Positions 5,369 through 52,797 of a stretch of 64,000 nt of DNA are shown piece by piece (within the stretch, counting starts at the first letter, position 1; each line of letters begins with the position of its first letter). Source of the DNA: Georgenia yuyongxinii (lineage in GTDB: Bacteria > Actinomycetota > Actinomycetes > Actinomycetales > Actinomycetaceae); assembly GCF_006352065.1 (NCBI RefSeq), contig NZ_CP040915.1, forward strand, positions 3,038,001-3,102,000, given 5' to 3'. Under the pieces are notes generated by a model. That model was given only the letters and a program-made list of their open reading frames with translations. It ran no database searches and was not told the DNA's origin. The translations under genes and the position numbers were made by a program.

Positions 5369-5482
5369 GGTTCTCCTGTTCTCGCCCTGGCCCCGACGCG
5401 CACCGGGACGGCGGCATGATGATGTCAGGAGTCAAACTCGTTACACTGCTGACAGTACTCGGACGTGGGAGAGGGGGTCAAC
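5369..5482. promoter_or_regulatory. Divergent promoter region, EamA transporter / CGNR regulator
   Basis: The 114-bp gap between two divergent genes contains the least GC-rich stretch nearby (5410-5460, around TCAAACTCGTTACACTGCTG). TACACT at 5444-5449 could be a -10 for the rightward gene, but no good -35 is present at the right distance. GAGT and ACTC half-sites flank the segment. An operator for the CGNR protein is expected here by context only. Confidence 0.35.
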
Positions 5483-6025
5483 GTGGTCTTCGCTCGCGAC
5501 ACGGAGGTCGCCCTGGCGACCGCGGCGTCCCTGGTCAACACCCGCGGACGGGACGAGGACCGGCTCACCACGGCCGCCGAGCTGGACGAGTTCCTCGCCG
5601 GATGGGAGTTCACCGGGGCCCGCACCCACGACGCCGTCGAGCTGGCAGCGGTGCGCGACCTGCGGCCGGTGCTGCGCCGGCTGTGGACGGCCGGCGACCC
5701 GGACGTCGTCGCCGCGGGCGTCAACGCCCTGCTGGCCGAGGCCGGTGCGCTGCCGCAGCTGGTGCGGCACGACGGCTGGGACTGGCACCTGCACGCCACC
5801 CCCCAGCAAGCCCCGCTGGCCACGCGGATGGCGGTGGAGGCGGCGATGGCGCTGGCCGACGTCGTCCGGGCCGGTGAGCTCGACCGGCTGCGGGTGTGCG
5901 CCGGCGAGCACTGCGCGGACCTGGTCGTGGACCTCTCGCGCAACCGCTCACGGCGCTACTGCGACTCCGGCTGCGGCAACCGCGCCAACGTGGCGGCCTA
6001 CCGGGCACGGCGGGCGGTGCCCTGA
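5483..6025 (+). CDS. CGNR zinc-finger transcriptional regulator (ABATE domain)
   Basis: About 180 residues. The N-terminal two thirds match the ABATE stress-response domain (LVNTxGRxEDxLTTxxELxxFL...), and the C-terminus is a CGNR zinc finger, with [10 protein letters not shown], then [20 protein letters not shown]. An earlier GTG at 5465 is in frame, but the purine-rich GGGAGAGGGGG (5467-5477) sits correctly before GTG 5483, so I prefer 5483. Such proteins bind DNA through the zinc finger, and the divergent transporter is the obvious target. Downstream, the gene faces the MFS gene, with the 58-bp palindrome between them. Confidence 0.85.
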
Positions 6026-6040
6026 GCCAACCTCCTCACG

Positions 6041-6098
6041 CGAGATGTCATCTTCTCCGCGAGACGTCATGACATGTCGCGGAGAAGATGACATCTCG
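6041..6098. repeat. 58-bp palindromic element, intergenic copy (copy 1)
   Basis: A near-perfect palindrome centred at 6069/6070. The outer 22 bp (from CGAGATGTCATCTTCTCCGC at 6041) are exactly complementary to 6077-6098, and only two base pairs in the inner part mismatch. It lies 15 bp after the CGNR stop and 12 bp before the MFS stop, between convergent genes, where as RNA it would fold into a long hairpin and could act as a two-way terminator. The same 58-bp sequence recurs inside coding frames at 18913-18970 and 52711-52768. Read in its single open frame it gives [19 protein letters not shown]. Confidence 0.93.
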
Positions 6099-6110
6099 CC
6101 GGGCGCGGGG

Positions 6111-7331
6111 TCAGTGCGGCGGCAGGTGCGCCGGGTCACCGTGATCGCGACGGCGCAGCATCGGCGCCACCACGAGCGCGGCGACGACCGCCAGCACACC
6201 CATGAGGGCCACCATGGCGAACCCGCCGCCGGAGCCGTCGGCGTCGATGAGCGAGCCTGCGACCGAGGAGCCCACGGACACGCCCACGTTCACGCCGGTG
6301 CTCAGCCAGGTCAGGCCCTCCGTGAGGCGGTGCCGGTCGACGATGTGCTGGACCATCGAGTTGCCGTTGATGATCGTCGGCGAGATCGCGAACCCGGTGA
6401 CGAACATGACCGCACCCATGACGGCGAGGCTGTCGACCAGGAGAAAAAGCGCCGTGCCGACGGCGAGCGCCACCACCCCGGCGAGGAAGCGCCGCCAGGC
6501 GGGCCCGGTCCAGGTGTGCGCGCCATAGAGCAGGCCCGCGATCACCGACCCGAGAGAGAAGATGCCGAGCAGCACGCCGGCGGCACCTGGGCGGCCGTGC
6601 TCGGCGGTGAACGCGACGATCGCGACGTCCGTGGCGCCGAAGATGCCGCCGACGAACATGAACACCACGACGATCCCGGCGAGCGCGCCGGAGCGCATCA
6701 CGCTGCCGGTGCGCGCCGCCGTGACGGACGCGGGCTGGACGGGCGGCTCCGTGCCGCGCTGGCCGAGGAAGGCGTAGCCGCCGACGGCGATCACCACGGC
6801 CGCGACCACGACGCCAGACCAGGGGGCGACGGAGGTGGCCAGGGTGGTGGCGACCACCGGCCCGAGGACGAACGTCGCCTCGTCGAGCGCGGACTCCAGC
6901 GAGTAGGCCCGGTGCAGGTCCCTCGGGGTCCGGACCGCACGGGTCCAGCGGGCGCGCACGAGCGCACCGATGGAGCCGATGGTCGCGCCGGAGAGGACGG
7001 CGCAGGCGTAGACCGTCCACAGCGGGGCGCCGAGCACGGCGGCGACGGCGAGCCCGGCCAGGCCCAGCGCGGAGACGGTGACGGCCGGGGTCATCACCCT
7101 GGCCTGCCCGCGGCGGTCCACCAGCCGGGCGAGCTGGGGTGCACAGATTGCCTGGGCGATGACGAACGTGGCCGACACCGTGCCGGCGGTGGCGTAGGAG
7201 CCGGTCAGGTTCGCCAGCATCAGGACGATGCCGATGCCCACCATGGAGACGGGGAACCGGGCGAGGAAGCCCGCCGCCGAGAACGCCAAGGCGCCGGGCA
7301 GCGCGAGGATCTGGCGATAAGAATTGGGCAC
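6111..7331 (-). CDS. Major facilitator superfamily transporter
   Basis: A 406-residue membrane protein with 12 hydrophobic segments and the MFS loop motif LARLVDRRGQARV between segments 2 and 3. The frame is open about 70 codons further upstream, but that part is Arg-rich and not membrane-like. The GTG at 7329-7331 starts the typical VPNSYRQILALPGALAFSAAGFL N-terminus. It resembles multidrug or sugar efflux members, and the substrate is unknown. Convergent with the CGNR gene, and divergent from the thioesterase-like gene across about 140 bp. Confidence 0.87.
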   Translation of the reverse strand: MPNSYRQILALPGALAFSAAGFLARFPVSMVGIGIVLMLANLTGSYATAGTVSATFVIAQAICAPQLARLVDRRGQARVMTPAVTVSALGLAGLAVAAVLGAPLWTVYACAVLSGATIGSIGALVRARWTRAVRTPRDLHRAYSLESALDEATFVLGPVVATTLATSVAPWSGVVVAAVVIAVGGYAFLGQRGTEPPVQPASVTAARTGSVMRSGALAGIVVVFMFVGGIFGATDVAIVAFTAEHGRPGAAGVLLGIFSLGSVIAGLLYGAHTWTGPAWRRFLAGVVALAVGTALFLLVDSLAVMGAVMFVTGFAISPTIINGNSMVQHIVDRHRLTEGLTWLSTGVNVGVSVGSSVAGSLIDADGSGGGFAMVALMGVLAVVAALVVAPMLRRRDHGDPAHLPPH

Positions 7332-10996: not shown

Positions 10997-11122
10997 CGCG
11001 TACCTCTCCTCGCGGGATGGTCCCCCGCAACGTAGATCACACCACCGACGTCGGCCTCCTTTCCAGCTGCTTTCGTCCGATGCGGCATACTGGACGGGCC
11101 GACAACTGAATAGCCACCGAAC

Positions 11123-11300
11123 CGCGGCGGGAGAGTCCCGCAGTTGCGGGCGCCGAAGGAGCAACCTCCCCGGGAATCTCTCAGGCCCCCAAGACCGCCG
11201 CTGGCGAGGCTCCTCTGGAAAGAAACCCCTCGGGGTTCACCGACGGTGTAAGCGGGTTTCGGCCCGCGAAAGCTCTCAGGTCCGAATGACAGAGCGGGGA
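11123..11300 (+). promoter_or_regulatory. Tandem glycine riboswitch
   Basis: Two aptamers in series. Aptamer 1 (about 11123-11218) shows GGCGGGAGAGTCCCGC, the GCGCCGAAGGAGCAACCTCC core and AATCTCTCAGGCCCC. Aptamer 2 (about 11219-11300) shows the CACCGACGG core, GAAAGCTCTCAGGTCC and GACAGAGCGGGGA. These match the Rfam gcvT/glycine riboswitch pattern of two glycine-binding units joined by a short linker. A CATACT at 11086-11091 could be its -10. The leader ends about 50 bp before GTG 11350. Whether it acts on transcription or translation is not evident, as I see no clear T-rich terminator before the gene. Confidence 0.92.
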
Positions 11301-17208: not shown

Positions 17209-17234
17209 CGGCGAGAGGATGACATCTCGCCGGA
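17209..17234. repeat. Possible remnant of the palindromic element
   Basis: CCGGCGAGA (17209-17217) pairs with TCTCGCCGG (17226-17234) around GGATGACA. The right side ATGACATCTCGCCGG is identical to the end of copy 1 and its flank (6089-6103). It may be a decayed half element reused as a hairpin eight bases beyond the malate synthase stop. Confidence 0.55.
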
Positions 17235-17241
17235 AAGGCTG

Positions 17242-19104
17242 TCAGTCCACCCGGTTGGCGTATGCCGGGACCGTGAGGAACGTCGGGTACTCCTCGCCCA
17301 GCGCCACCTCCGTGAACAGCTCGGCGGCCTGGGTGATGCGGGCGCGGCGGCCGCCGTCCGCCCCCGTCTCGCCGAGCTCGCCGGGCCCGTCCGGCTCCCC
17401 CGCCTCACCCAGCAGGATCGCCGTCTCCTCACTCAGGATCTTCTCGACCAGCTCCCGGGTGACCGTCCGACCGTCCGCGAGCGCCGTGCCGTGGTGAATC
17501 CACTGCCACACCTGCGACCGCGAGATCTCCGCCGTCGCCGCGTCCTCCATGAGCCCGAAGATCCCGACGGCGCCGCGGCCTTCCAGCCATGCCTCGAGGT
17601 AGCGCAGGGCCACGGCGACGTTCGTGCGCAGCCCCTCGGCGGTGACGGCCCCCGGGGTGGCGGCGACGTCGAGCAGCTCGGCCGCGCCCACCCGCACGTC
17701 GTCGCGCTTGCGGCCCATCTGGTGCGGCATGAAGCCCAGGGTGGCGTCGAAGACGTCCGCCACCGCGCCCACCATGCCCGGGTGCGCCACCCACGAGCCG
17801 TCGAACCCGGCGGCGGCCTCGCGGGACTTGTCCTCGCGGACCTTGGCGAACACCACCGCGTCGCGCTCGGGGTCCTTGGAGGGGATGAACGCGGACATCC
17901 CGCCGATCGCGTGCGCGCCGCGTCGGTGGCAGGTGCGCACCAGCAGCTCGGTGTAGGCGCGCATGAACGGCACCGTCATGGTCACGTCCGCCCGGTCGGG
18001 CAGCACGAACTCGGGCCGGGTCCGGAAGTTCTTGATGACCGAGAAGATGTAGTCCCACCGGCCGGCGTTCAGTCCGGCGGAGTGCTCGCGCAGCTCGTAG
18101 AGGATCTCCTCCATCTCGAACGCCGCGGTGATGGTCTCGATCAGGACCGTCGCGCGGATCGCGCCGCGCTCGAGCCCTAGGTAGTCCTCGGCGAAGGCGA
18201 ACACGTCGTTCCACAGCCGCGCCTCGAGGTGGTTCTCGAGCTTGGCGAGGTAGAAGTACGGGCCCGCGCCGCGGCGCAGGAGCTCCTTGGCGTTGTGGAA
18301 GAAGTACAGCCCGAAGTCGACCAGCCCGCCCACCATGACCTGCCCGTCCACCCGCAGGTGCTTCTCGGTCAGGTGCCACCCGCGGGGGCGCACGACGATC
18401 GTGGCCAGCTCGCCGTCGCGCAGGGCGTACCGCTTGCCCGTGGGCCCGGTGAAGGTGATGTCGCGGCGGATCGCGTCGCGCAGGTTCACCTGCCCGTCGA
18501 CCACGTTGGCGAAGTGCGGGGTGTTGGCGTCCTCGAGGTCGGCCAGCCACACCTTCGCGCCGGAGTTCAGGGCGTTGATGGTCATCTTCCGCTCGGTGGG
18601 CCCGGTGATCTCCACGCGCCGGTCCTCCAGGCCCGGCGCCGGCGGCGGCACCTGCCAGGACGGGTCCCGGCGGATGTGCGCGGTCTCGGCCCGGAAGTCC
18701 AGGGTGGCGCCGTCGGCCAGGGCCCGACGGCGGCGCTGGCGTTCGGCGAGCAGGTCCGCCCGGCGGGGGGCGAACCGGGTGTGCAGCTCGGCGAGGAACT
18801 TCAGCGCCGCCGGCGTGAGGATCTCCGCGGCACCCGGCACCGCCGGACCGACCACCTCCACGGCCGGCGCGCCCCCTGCGCGCGCCGTGTGAAAGCGCCA
18901 ACCCCGAGGCGCCGAGATGTCATCTTCTCCGTGAGAAGTCATGACATGTCGCGGAGAAGATGACATCTCGCGGGCACTTTGCGCGGAGGCCGGCGACGGC
19001 GCGCTGGGGACGCTCGGTGCGACGACGTGCAGCGGGGACGCGGCGGCGGCGCGCCGGGGCGGGGCGACGGCGAGGCTGTGGGTGGTGGGTCCGGCGATGG
19101 TCAT
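17242..19104 (-). CDS. aceB: Malate synthase A, with N-terminal extension carrying a palindromic-element peptide
   Basis: Condenses glyoxylate with acetyl-CoA to malate in the glyoxylate shunt. The family core starts around residue 95 ([21 protein letters not shown]). The signature [22 protein letters not shown] is present, as are [15 protein letters not shown] and the late [10 protein letters not shown]. At 620 residues it is about 80 longer than usual (about 535). Residues 1-45 are Ala/Pro/Ser-rich and residues 46-64 ([19 protein letters not shown]) are encoded by the 58-bp palindrome. ATG 19104 has a well-placed GAGAGG, favouring translation through the element. An ATG inside the element or GTG 18862 are alternatives. 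A Gly/Glu-rich insert lies near the C-terminus. It follows isocitrate lyase after 28 bp. Confidence 0.93.
18913..18970. repeat. 58-bp palindromic element inside malate synthase gene (copy 2)
   Basis: Same length and layout as copy 1. The left arm CGAGATGTCATCTTCTCCG is repeated inverted at the right end (...TGACATCTCG to 18970), with a few inner mismatches. On the minus strand it adds codons 46-64 in frame with no stop. In the other two frames the element contains TGA stops, so only this phase is compatible with an uninterrupted gene. Confidence 0.93.
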
Positions 19105-51123: not shown

Positions 51124-52797
51124 TCAGCGCACGTCCACCCGCACCGCCCGCTCGGCGTGCGGGTCGGCCACCGTGGGCAGCACGGAGATCAGCTCACCGT
51201 CGGGCGCCTGGACGGTGAGGACGACGGCGGCCACCACACCGTCGGCGGCGCTGAGCTGGACGGCGGCGACGGCGCCGCCCAGGTCCCCCACCGGCGTCGC
51301 GACCGTGGCCTCGGCCGGGACCGTCACGGTCACCGGCTCGCCGCGCGCGCCGGCCCGGGTGGTGGGCACGAGCTCGACGTCGACCGGTACCTCGGCGGGG
51401 TTGCTCAGCGTCACCGTGGCCGTCTCGACGAGCTCGCCCAGAGCCGGCACGGGCAGGATCCCGGTGGTGCGCGGCTCCGCGGCGGCCGTCCAGGCCCGGT
51501 CCACCGGGGCGACGTCCGGGTCCAGCTCGCCCGGCGTGCCGGTGCGGGCGAGCACGACCGCGCCGGTGACCGGCCGGTCGGCCTCGATGCTGACGGCGTA
51601 GGCGCCCGGCGCGATCCCGGCCAGGGACAGGTCGAGGACGACGCCCGGGTCGAGAGCGACCGCCTCGGCGCCGGGCAGCTCCGTCGCGCCGTCGGGCCCG
51701 AGGAGCCGGACCTTGGCGGTGGCGACCTCCTCGCCGGGGTTGACGAGCCGCACGGCGGAGGTGGCGGCGTCGTCGAGGTTGGTCTCGCCGAGCAGCACCC
51801 CGGGGATGGTCAGGGCGAGGGCGGGCGCGGTGGCGGGCGCGACGACGTCGACCCCGGCGGGCACGAAGCCTTTGAGCCGGAGGTCCTGGACCGCGGCGGT
51901 CACCTCGCCGCCGGCGGCGTCCACGCGCAGGGCGAGGCGGGGGTCGCCGGTCAGGGCGCCTTCGAGGAGGACGGCGGTCTGCGCGCCGGGCGCGATCACG
52001 ATGCCGGTGAGCAGGGGTGCCTGGGCGACCCCGAGGGAGGTCCACGCGGTCACGTTGACGGTGGCGGGGGTGCGGCCGGGGTTGGTGAGGACGAGCTGGG
52101 CGCTGGCGCCGGGCTCGGTGGCGCCGCCGACGAGCCAGGTAGTAGTCGCGGGGGTCTGGCAGGCGGTGGCGCTCAGGCCGCGCAGGTCACCGCCGGTGGT
52201 GCGGGCGAGGGTGGCGCCGGCGAGCAGGGCGCTGGTCTCGCCGGCGGGCTGGGCCTGGACGATCGCGCTGCCGGTCGCGTCGGTGCGCAGCACGCGGGAG
52301 TCCCCGGCGGGCTGGAGCTCCTGGGACGCGCCACCCAGGGGTATGTACGCGGCCTCGGCGGCGGGTGCGTCGCCGCGCGGCAGGGTGAGCAGCTCGGTGC
52401 GGGTGGTGGGGGTGACGTCGGCCTGGCCCAGGGTGGGGTCGACCGCCATGCCGTGCCCGCTCGTGGGCGTGGGCGGCCCGGCGCAGACCACGGTGACGGG
52501 ACCGGCGGGCACATCGACGAGCGGGGCGGGCACGGCGGTGGCGTCGGCGGGGGCGTAGTACTGCCCGGCGACGACGGCGCCCGCGGCGGCGGCGAGGAGC
52601 AGGACCGCGGAGGTGGTGGTGCCGATGCGCCGCAGGGCCCTCGTGCTGCGCTTGGGGCGCGAGCCCGTAGTGGGCCGCGAGATGTCATCTTCTCCGCGGG
52701 CGCTCTCCCGCGAGATGTCATCTTCTCCGCCAGATGTCATGACATCTCGCGGAGAAGATGACATCTCGCCACCCTTGTTGGAGTTGGGGTTGGTCAC
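51124..52797 (-). CDS. DUF5719 family secreted/membrane-anchored protein with palindromic-element peptide
   Basis: 557 residues. The short N-terminus (VTNPNSNKGG) is followed by residues 11-29 (EMSSSPRDVMTSGGEDDIS) and a half repeat (GEDDIS, 35-40), both encoded by palindromic elements. Then come a basic stretch, one membrane helix (TTTSAVLLLAAAAGAVVAG) and a large extracytoplasmic beta-rich region with repeated Ala/Val/Thr modules, as in DUF5719. GTG 52797 overlaps the stop of the giant GT2 gene (GTGA) and GGGAGG stands before it, favouring translation through the element. Function unknown. Its constant partner is the GT2 gene. Confidence 0.88.
   Translation of the reverse strand: MTNPNSNKGGEMSSSPRDVMTSGGEDDISRESARGEDDISRPTTGSRPKRSTRALRRIGTTTSAVLLLAAAAGAVVAGQYYAPADATAVPAPLVDVPAGPVTVVCAGPPTPTSGHGMAVDPTLGQADVTPTTRTELLTLPRGDAPAAEAAYIPLGGASQELQPAGDSRVLRTDATGSAIVQAQPAGETSALLAGATLARTTGGDLRGLSATACQTPATTTWLVGGATEPGASAQLVLTNPGRTPATVNVTAWTSLGVAQAPLLTGIVIAPGAQTAVLLEGALTGDPRLALRVDAAGGEVTAAVQDLRLKGFVPAGVDVVAPATAPALALTIPGVLLGETNLDDAATSAVRLVNPGEEVATAKVRLLGPDGATELPGAEAVALDPGVVLDLSLAGIAPGAYAVSIEADRPVTGAVVLARTGTPGELDPDVAPVDRAWTAAAEPRTTGILPVPALGELVETATVTLSNPAEVPVDVELVPTTRAGARGEPVTVTVPAEATVATPVGDLGGAVAAVQLSAADGVVAAVVLTVQAPDGELISVLPTVADPHAERAVRVDVR
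52678..52768. repeat. Palindromic element in DUF5719 gene: full copy plus half copy (copy 3)
   Basis: The full copy 52711-52768 has a single mismatched base pair (52731/52748). A half copy (CGAGATGTCATCTTCTCCGC, 52678-52697) lies 12 bases away in the same direction as the full copy's left arm. Both are in frame in the minus-strand gene. Confidence 0.95.

Follow-up and report, generated by a model that had tools for sequence, protein, structure and literature searches.

Interspersed palindromes that have turned into segments of proteins are best known from Rickettsia, and the mycobacterial MIRU repeats are 40-100 bp in length, neither palindromic nor periodic at 19 bp. The Georgenia repeat examined in this study is, like MIRU, a short actinobacterial repeat that overlaps stop or start codons. 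REPs, as described in PMC3733652, are short interspersed palindromes that are found mostly between convergent or unidirectional genes, 3' of coding regions, and often as inverted dimers; some of them are intragenic, adding 20-30 residues to a protein, and the shorter Rickettsia elements RPE-4 and RPE-6 are classed there as CGTC REPs. No word beginning with "actinobacter" occurs in that paper. Rickettsia palindromic elements (RPE) are, according to the review PMC10969869, ~150 bp in length with a very high intragenic share, whereas the Georgenia repeat is 56-60 bp in its palindromic form and intragenic in a small minority of cases; the two are alike in that a palindrome lies in frame within unrelated genes and is read as a conserved peptide. 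SPRITE of Streptococcus pneumoniae, mentioned in the same review, is also interspersed and resembles terminators.

We analyzed the genome of Georgenia yuyongxinii (G000) together with eight other Georgenia genomes (labelled G001, G002, G003, and so on), starting from a stretch of 64,000 nucleotides that is called the window hereafter. In the window, a gene for malate synthase, aceB (17242-19104, minus strand), encodes a protein of 620 residues with the Pfam domains MS_N, MS_TIM-barrel, and MS_C, and a 58-bp palindrome (18913-18970) lies within this gene, being read as 19 residues (46-64). The two arms of this palindrome (18913-18941 and 18942-18970; 29 nt each) adjoin with no gap and are 90% complementary, and an intergenic palindrome (6041-6098), placed between a CGNR zinc-finger gene (5465-6025) and a convergent gene at 6111-7331, has arms of 30 nt each (6040-6069 and 6070-6099) that are 93% complementary. 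The half-unit GAGATGTCATCTTCTCC occurs eight times in the window with up to three mismatches, as compared with an expectation of 0.07 and with none of 100 shuffles reaching eight; furthermore, the RNA fold z-scores of the two palindromes on both strands range from -6.8 to -9.6. The near-perfect 58-bp palindrome and its intergenic copy at 6041-6098, both claimed in the original prediction, are thus confirmed, and so is the claim that aceB uses the sole open frame: only one of the six frames through the palindrome is free of stop codons, and it is the frame of aceB itself. A single unit with two mismatches is also present just 3' of the aceB stop codon (17212-17228, minus strand), co-oriented with aceB; neither this unit nor a third copy at 52678-52768, described below, was part of the original prediction. 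No Rfam family was hit over the palindrome at the gathering thresholds. Elsewhere in the window, a glycine riboswitch was detected at 11118-11207 on the plus strand (RF00504, 68.8 bits).

The orthologue of aceB was found in all nine Georgenia genomes, in every one of which a purine-rich ribosome site is immediately followed by a protein start of MT and then by conserved segments, namely a VAPPRR-like and a VVAPS-like one. These segments are followed by a Pro/Ala/Ser/Thr-rich stretch of variable length, after which the catalytic part begins. It is in this stretch that the element is located in G. yuyongxinii only, and aceB of the other eight Georgenia has no insert; the comparison of orthologues proposed earlier places the insertion in a region of varying length. 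Given that MS_N begins at residue 82 of G. yuyongxinii AceB, the element at residues 46-64 is indeed in a variable N-terminal extension and not in the catalytic core, and the good ribosome site assigned earlier to the upstream ATG is equally borne out. The best named relatives of this aceB are those of Georgenia sp. SYP-B2076 and EYE_87, the N-terminal sequences of which are the same as those of G008 and G001. Upstream of the element, the frequency of mismatches between species is 0.41 at the third codon position as compared with 0.29 and 0.24 at the other two. Because the upstream start and the N-terminus are conserved in all nine Georgenia, the 19-residue peptide of AceB is very probably made, as far as can be judged from comparison of sequences, in line with the earlier proposal. 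Alternatively, the aceB copy might be untranslated, with the true start codon after the element and the region in question being a leader; a gene caller based on codon usage puts the start at 18861, i.e., downstream of the element, two ATG codons are present within the element itself, and PMC3733652 warns that misannotation may account for most REPs placed in N-terminal coding regions. The ribosome site, the ATG codon, and the conserved N-terminal segment are, nonetheless, all upstream of the element site in the nine species, and the mismatches in this upstream region fall mostly at third codon positions. In our judgment, the comparison across species outweighs the later start given by the codon-usage caller, and an untranslated copy appears quite unlikely. 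Two further matches to malate synthase were noticed in the G. yuyongxinii genome; one (2777884-2779434) has its counterpart in each of the eight remaining Georgenia genomes, and the other (808810-809790) is shorter and contains one internal stop codon.

The palindrome is a form of a wider family, the basic unit of which is 19 bp in length and directional with a core of GAGnnGTCA. While the palindromes are real, the earlier view of a 58-bp palindrome as the unit needs to be revised, since the basic 19-mer has a direction and is also found repeated in tandem; in G002 and G003, the units are arranged as head-to-tail arrays. When the spacing between cores on the same strand was counted up to 45 bp, 48 pairs were at 19 bp and seven at 38 bp in G. 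yuyongxinii (any other spacing, three or fewer), 34 and 24 in G002 (no other spacing), and 86 and 53 in G003 (any other, two or fewer). The first half of the unit, with the core, is common to the species, and the second half varies between species and between arrays: the commonest is TCTTCTCC in G. yuyongxinii and ACTCCTCC in G003, and G002 has AGTAGTGC together with other forms, its arrays being unlike one another. The whole genome of G. yuyongxinii contains 256 half-units with up to three mismatches as compared with one for the reversed pattern. In a sample of 864 kb, composed of the window and 40 evenly spread 20-kb stretches, 39 clusters including weak single units were found against one hit for the reversed control, which extrapolates to roughly 190 clusters in the genome. 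G001 has a few units. By inspection, at least one of its six cores looks like a chance match, and so does the small number of cores seen in G004, G005, G007, and G008. Also, we noticed in G001 a different repeat (locus L241, near 1896-1950), namely a 15-bp tandem and inverted repeat (GGCGCAGTGTC) that follows a gene with 19-bp units at its orthologue in G003; this 15-bp-period type is not dispersed among the 35 G001 loci searched. Tandem repeats of ~23 bp are, furthermore, found directly past a stop codon in G003 (locus L299), and it is suggested that Georgenia has gene-end tandem arrays of several kinds.

With respect to the neighboring genes, the 39 clusters in the 864-kb sample can be categorized into 13 between convergent genes, 20 between tandem genes, 3 between divergent genes, and 3 in called genes, where the aceB cluster is counted as tandem because the codon-usage caller starts aceB later. 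Among spacers longer than 40 bp in this sample, convergent and divergent ones make up 19% and 28% of the bases, respectively, and the clusters of G. yuyongxinii are thus over-represented in convergent spacers and scarce in divergent ones. The distance from a stop codon to the first co-oriented unit has a median of 24 nt in the same sample (n = 34). Among 23 single-direction clusters of G. yuyongxinii, 10 are co-oriented only with a gene end, 3 are anti-oriented only, 3 are both, and 7 are neither. In G002, 29 of 35 cores (GAGNYGTCA) are co-oriented within 150 nt past a stop codon, with 3 anti-oriented and 3 elsewhere; the corresponding numbers for 72 cores in G. yuyongxinii are 36, 15, and 21, the first of which should be read with the fact that the palindromes carry both core directions. 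A random 200-kb sample of G003 gave no strict core co-oriented with a gene end, one anti-oriented, and seven elsewhere, and the G003 arrays studied here came from a pattern search; the 23 clusters at 20 chosen G003 sites comprise 14 between convergent genes and 5 between tandem ones, in addition to 3 between divergent genes and 1 inside a gene. The leader between the stop codon and the first unit is rich in C and poor in G, with C outnumbering G in 43 of the 47 leaders examined at array ends (the G003 part of which includes chosen sites) and at 431 of 774 control ends. Even where the neighboring genes are in tandem, a palindrome has C-rich flanks on either side, which would also fit insertion into C-rich targets without any function.

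At single-direction arrays, a strong hairpin of the kind seen at most other gene ends is mostly missing. By taking a 44-nt window folding at -22 kcal/mol or below as a strong hairpin, we found one in none of seven single-direction array ends of G002 (71% of 183 unit-free ends; p 0.0006), one of 14 in G003 (74% of 101; p <0.0001), and one of eight in G. yuyongxinii (57% of 361; p 0.08). In G. yuyongxinii alone, the difference is thus not significant. This comparison is confounded by base composition, given that weak folding is to be expected of C-rich leaders and arrays regardless of any role, and base composition may explain a part of the deficit at single-direction arrays. The palindromic copies of G. 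yuyongxinii fold strongly but have no run of T by inspection, and single-direction arrays are mostly without a strong fold; SPRITE, in contrast, resembles Rho-independent terminators. We also considered insertion into pre-existing hairpins, but in a set of 33 palindromes, the two flanks of a copy showed no higher complementarity with one another than with other flanks (permutation p 0.69).

Sites of the repeat are only partly shared among the species. When 12 sites of G. yuyongxinii were tested, a matching array, placed about as far past the stop codon, was found in G002 for two genes (which we take from their sequences to be tpiA and rluB), with a second half different from that in G. yuyongxinii; a third site has a lone unit in G002, and one other has an array in G003. 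Where an orthologue was available, no unit was present at 8 of 11 sites in G002 and at 10 of 11 in G003. One further spacer, which we take from its sequence to separate argF from argG, contains elements in G. yuyongxinii and in G003 but not in G001. For 11 G003 arrays, the flanking gene has an orthologue in G001; units are absent from 10 of the corresponding G001 sites, and the remaining one (L240) has a single unit. A search of the 60-nt element against 39 relatives gave matches only in G. yuyongxinii and G003, and pattern scans covering 396 genomes from the order and 396 from the phylum gave only G. yuyongxinii and one single hit with two mismatches. Because G. yuyongxinii was the only Georgenia in these samples and the pattern included the second half of the G. 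yuyongxinii type, the scans cannot exclude relatives of the G002 type; indeed, G002 itself has only seven half-units of the G. yuyongxinii type against one in the control, yet its arrays are present. No pairs with a 19-bp period were found in 78 loci of other genera (575 kb). We also searched plasmid and phage records with no match to the element, and an origin from plasmids, phages, or viruses was rejected; two pattern hits in viral contigs, each an isolated pair within AT-rich sequence, look like chance matches.

Such a patchy distribution raises the question of whether the repeat is mobile. A selfish miniature mobile element might be supposed, in which a transposon, since lost or so far unseen, would have the 19-mers at its inverted ends as binding repeats for the transposase and prefer C-rich spacers behind genes for its insertion, with no role at transcript ends. 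The copy at 6040-6099 has seven counterparts with 95-98% identity elsewhere in the genome, two G003 loci with unrelated genes (L158 and L160) share a nearly identical interior of ~60 bp as if it had been copied whole, the inserts are absent from orthologous genes, and the flanks of the palindromes are C-rich on either side, all of which would be expected from such an element. In G002, however, the cores point with transcription in 29 cases and against it in 3, two positions of G. yuyongxinii keep arrays in G002 despite a different second half, and neither a full-length element nor a transposase was found in the loci examined, in addition to the lack of plasmid or phage matches. Terminal inverted repeats, as in MITEs, are present in the palindromic copies and absent from the single-direction arrays, and we saw neither a target-site duplication nor a matching autonomous transposon, no empty site being aligned well enough and the transposase search covering the Y1 class. 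A purely selfish element is therefore considered rather unlikely. Among the features of REP/REPIN, a short palindromic repeat in many copies that is mainly extragenic and 3' of genes is observed, and the size, the palindromic dimers, and the 3' location are like those of the REPs in PMC3733652, as is the presence of some intragenic copies. Mobilization by RAYT is nonetheless disfavoured and very unlikely: the Y1_Tnp profile (PF01797) matched none of the nine Georgenia genomes, while it matched 5 of 14 reference genomes as a control, and no GTAG/CGTC tag was found at the stem end by inspection, the outer ends being CGCGAGA with CGTC or TGTC only inside the core. Besides this lack of a tag and of a Y1 transposase, the Georgenia unit differs from REPs in that it is a directional 19-mer, repeats in tandem at strictly 19 bp, follows a C-rich leader, and has a second half specific to the species.

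Coding copies were searched in 82 distinct clusters of G. yuyongxinii and 30 of G003, both sets partly picked by pattern hits, and four of these 112 clusters were accepted as internal to coding regions: those in aceB, a DUF5719 gene, a PucR regulator, and a G003 flavoprotein. The DUF5719 gene (51124-52797, minus strand) is a probable second case in the window, in which a palindrome with one extra unit (52678-52768) is located 25 nt past the stop codon of the upstream gene and read in frame (EMSSSPRDVMTSGGEDDISRESARGEDDIS) as much of the N-terminal tail ahead of a hydrophobic segment; the putative GTG start overlaps the upstream stop codon (GTGA), and the eight orthologues have different low-complexity tails at this position. 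This is the weakest of the four, because the start is inferred and no conserved sequence exists upstream of the element. The PucR-type regulator of G. yuyongxinii (L004) has 18-19 extra residues that are absent from both orthologues found, and the flavoprotein of G003 (L157) contains a four-unit array absent from all eight orthologues including that of G. yuyongxinii, in which other sequence of varying length occupies the position. Codon scores upstream of the element are positive for PucR and the flavoprotein but -0.5 for aceB and -15.6 for DUF5719, the latter two having been accepted on comparative grounds despite the negative scores. Several other frames open through units (42599 in the window; L118, L123, L147, L190, and L165) were not counted as coding, their upstream codon scores being negative, nor was that at 2769 of L157, a weak single unit. 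Three genes terminate inside an element, giving the C-termini EMSSSR, EMSSSP, and LSRRR (L111, L153, and L155, respectively). As was originally claimed, the repeat resembles the Rickettsia palindromic elements in that in-frame copies are absent from orthologues (aceB, PucR, and the flavoprotein); the idea of a protein-coding class of palindromes holds only in part, however, since most copies are just 3' of genes and the large intragenic share of RPE is not seen. The Georgenia repeat is, accordingly, closer to REPs, of which a copy is intragenic now and then, than to a gene-colonising family.

Taken together, the repeat is probably a REP-like one at gene ends that serves as a signal for transcript ends, and its compact bidirectional form would also insert elsewhere and survive in proteins. 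The position, direction, period, and leader suggest the signal, and near-identical compact palindromes at unrelated places together with inserts missing from orthologues suggest that the compact form moves; the function at transcript ends and the act of insertion are inferred, as is the translation of the peptide. Units of 19 bp are arranged head to tail, usually from ~20 nt past the stop codon behind a C-rich leader and mostly in the direction of transcription, and a palindrome arises where two such arrays meet head to head or as the compact form of 56-60 bp. The element would then probably mark the transcript end in place of an ordinary GC-rich hairpin. The compact form may also spread to new places, and while most insertions into genes would be lost, those in a tolerant tail or loop could persist where the open frame of the element is in phase with the gene; in aceB, the ribosome would read the element as 19 residues. 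Rho loading sites are known to be rich in C and poor in G at the RNA level. More speculatively, the tandem GAGnnGTCA cores with a 19-bp pitch and a C-rich leader might constitute a genus-specific gene-end code, which a putative sequence-specific factor, possibly with Rho, would read to end or trim transcripts without a hairpin, and some units of which became protein segments through in-frame bidirectional insertions; this extension is possible but tentative.

Because palindromes inside genes are already known as REPs and RPEs, the coding copy in aceB is a further case of something known, and the periodic, directional, and mostly hairpin-free arrays at gene ends are the more unusual part. Our literature search, limited in scope, found nothing on the Georgenia repeat or on arrays at gene ends that are periodic and directional, follow a C-rich leader, and mostly have no hairpin. 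The aceB case nonetheless provides a coding palindrome in a high-GC actinobacterium with orthologues both with and without the insert, where the conserved upstream start answers the usual objection of misannotation. Arrays that keep a strict 19-bp period at gene ends, in which half of the unit is turned over between species and a hairpin is mostly absent, furthermore, point to a gene-end signal in Georgenia that can be tested.
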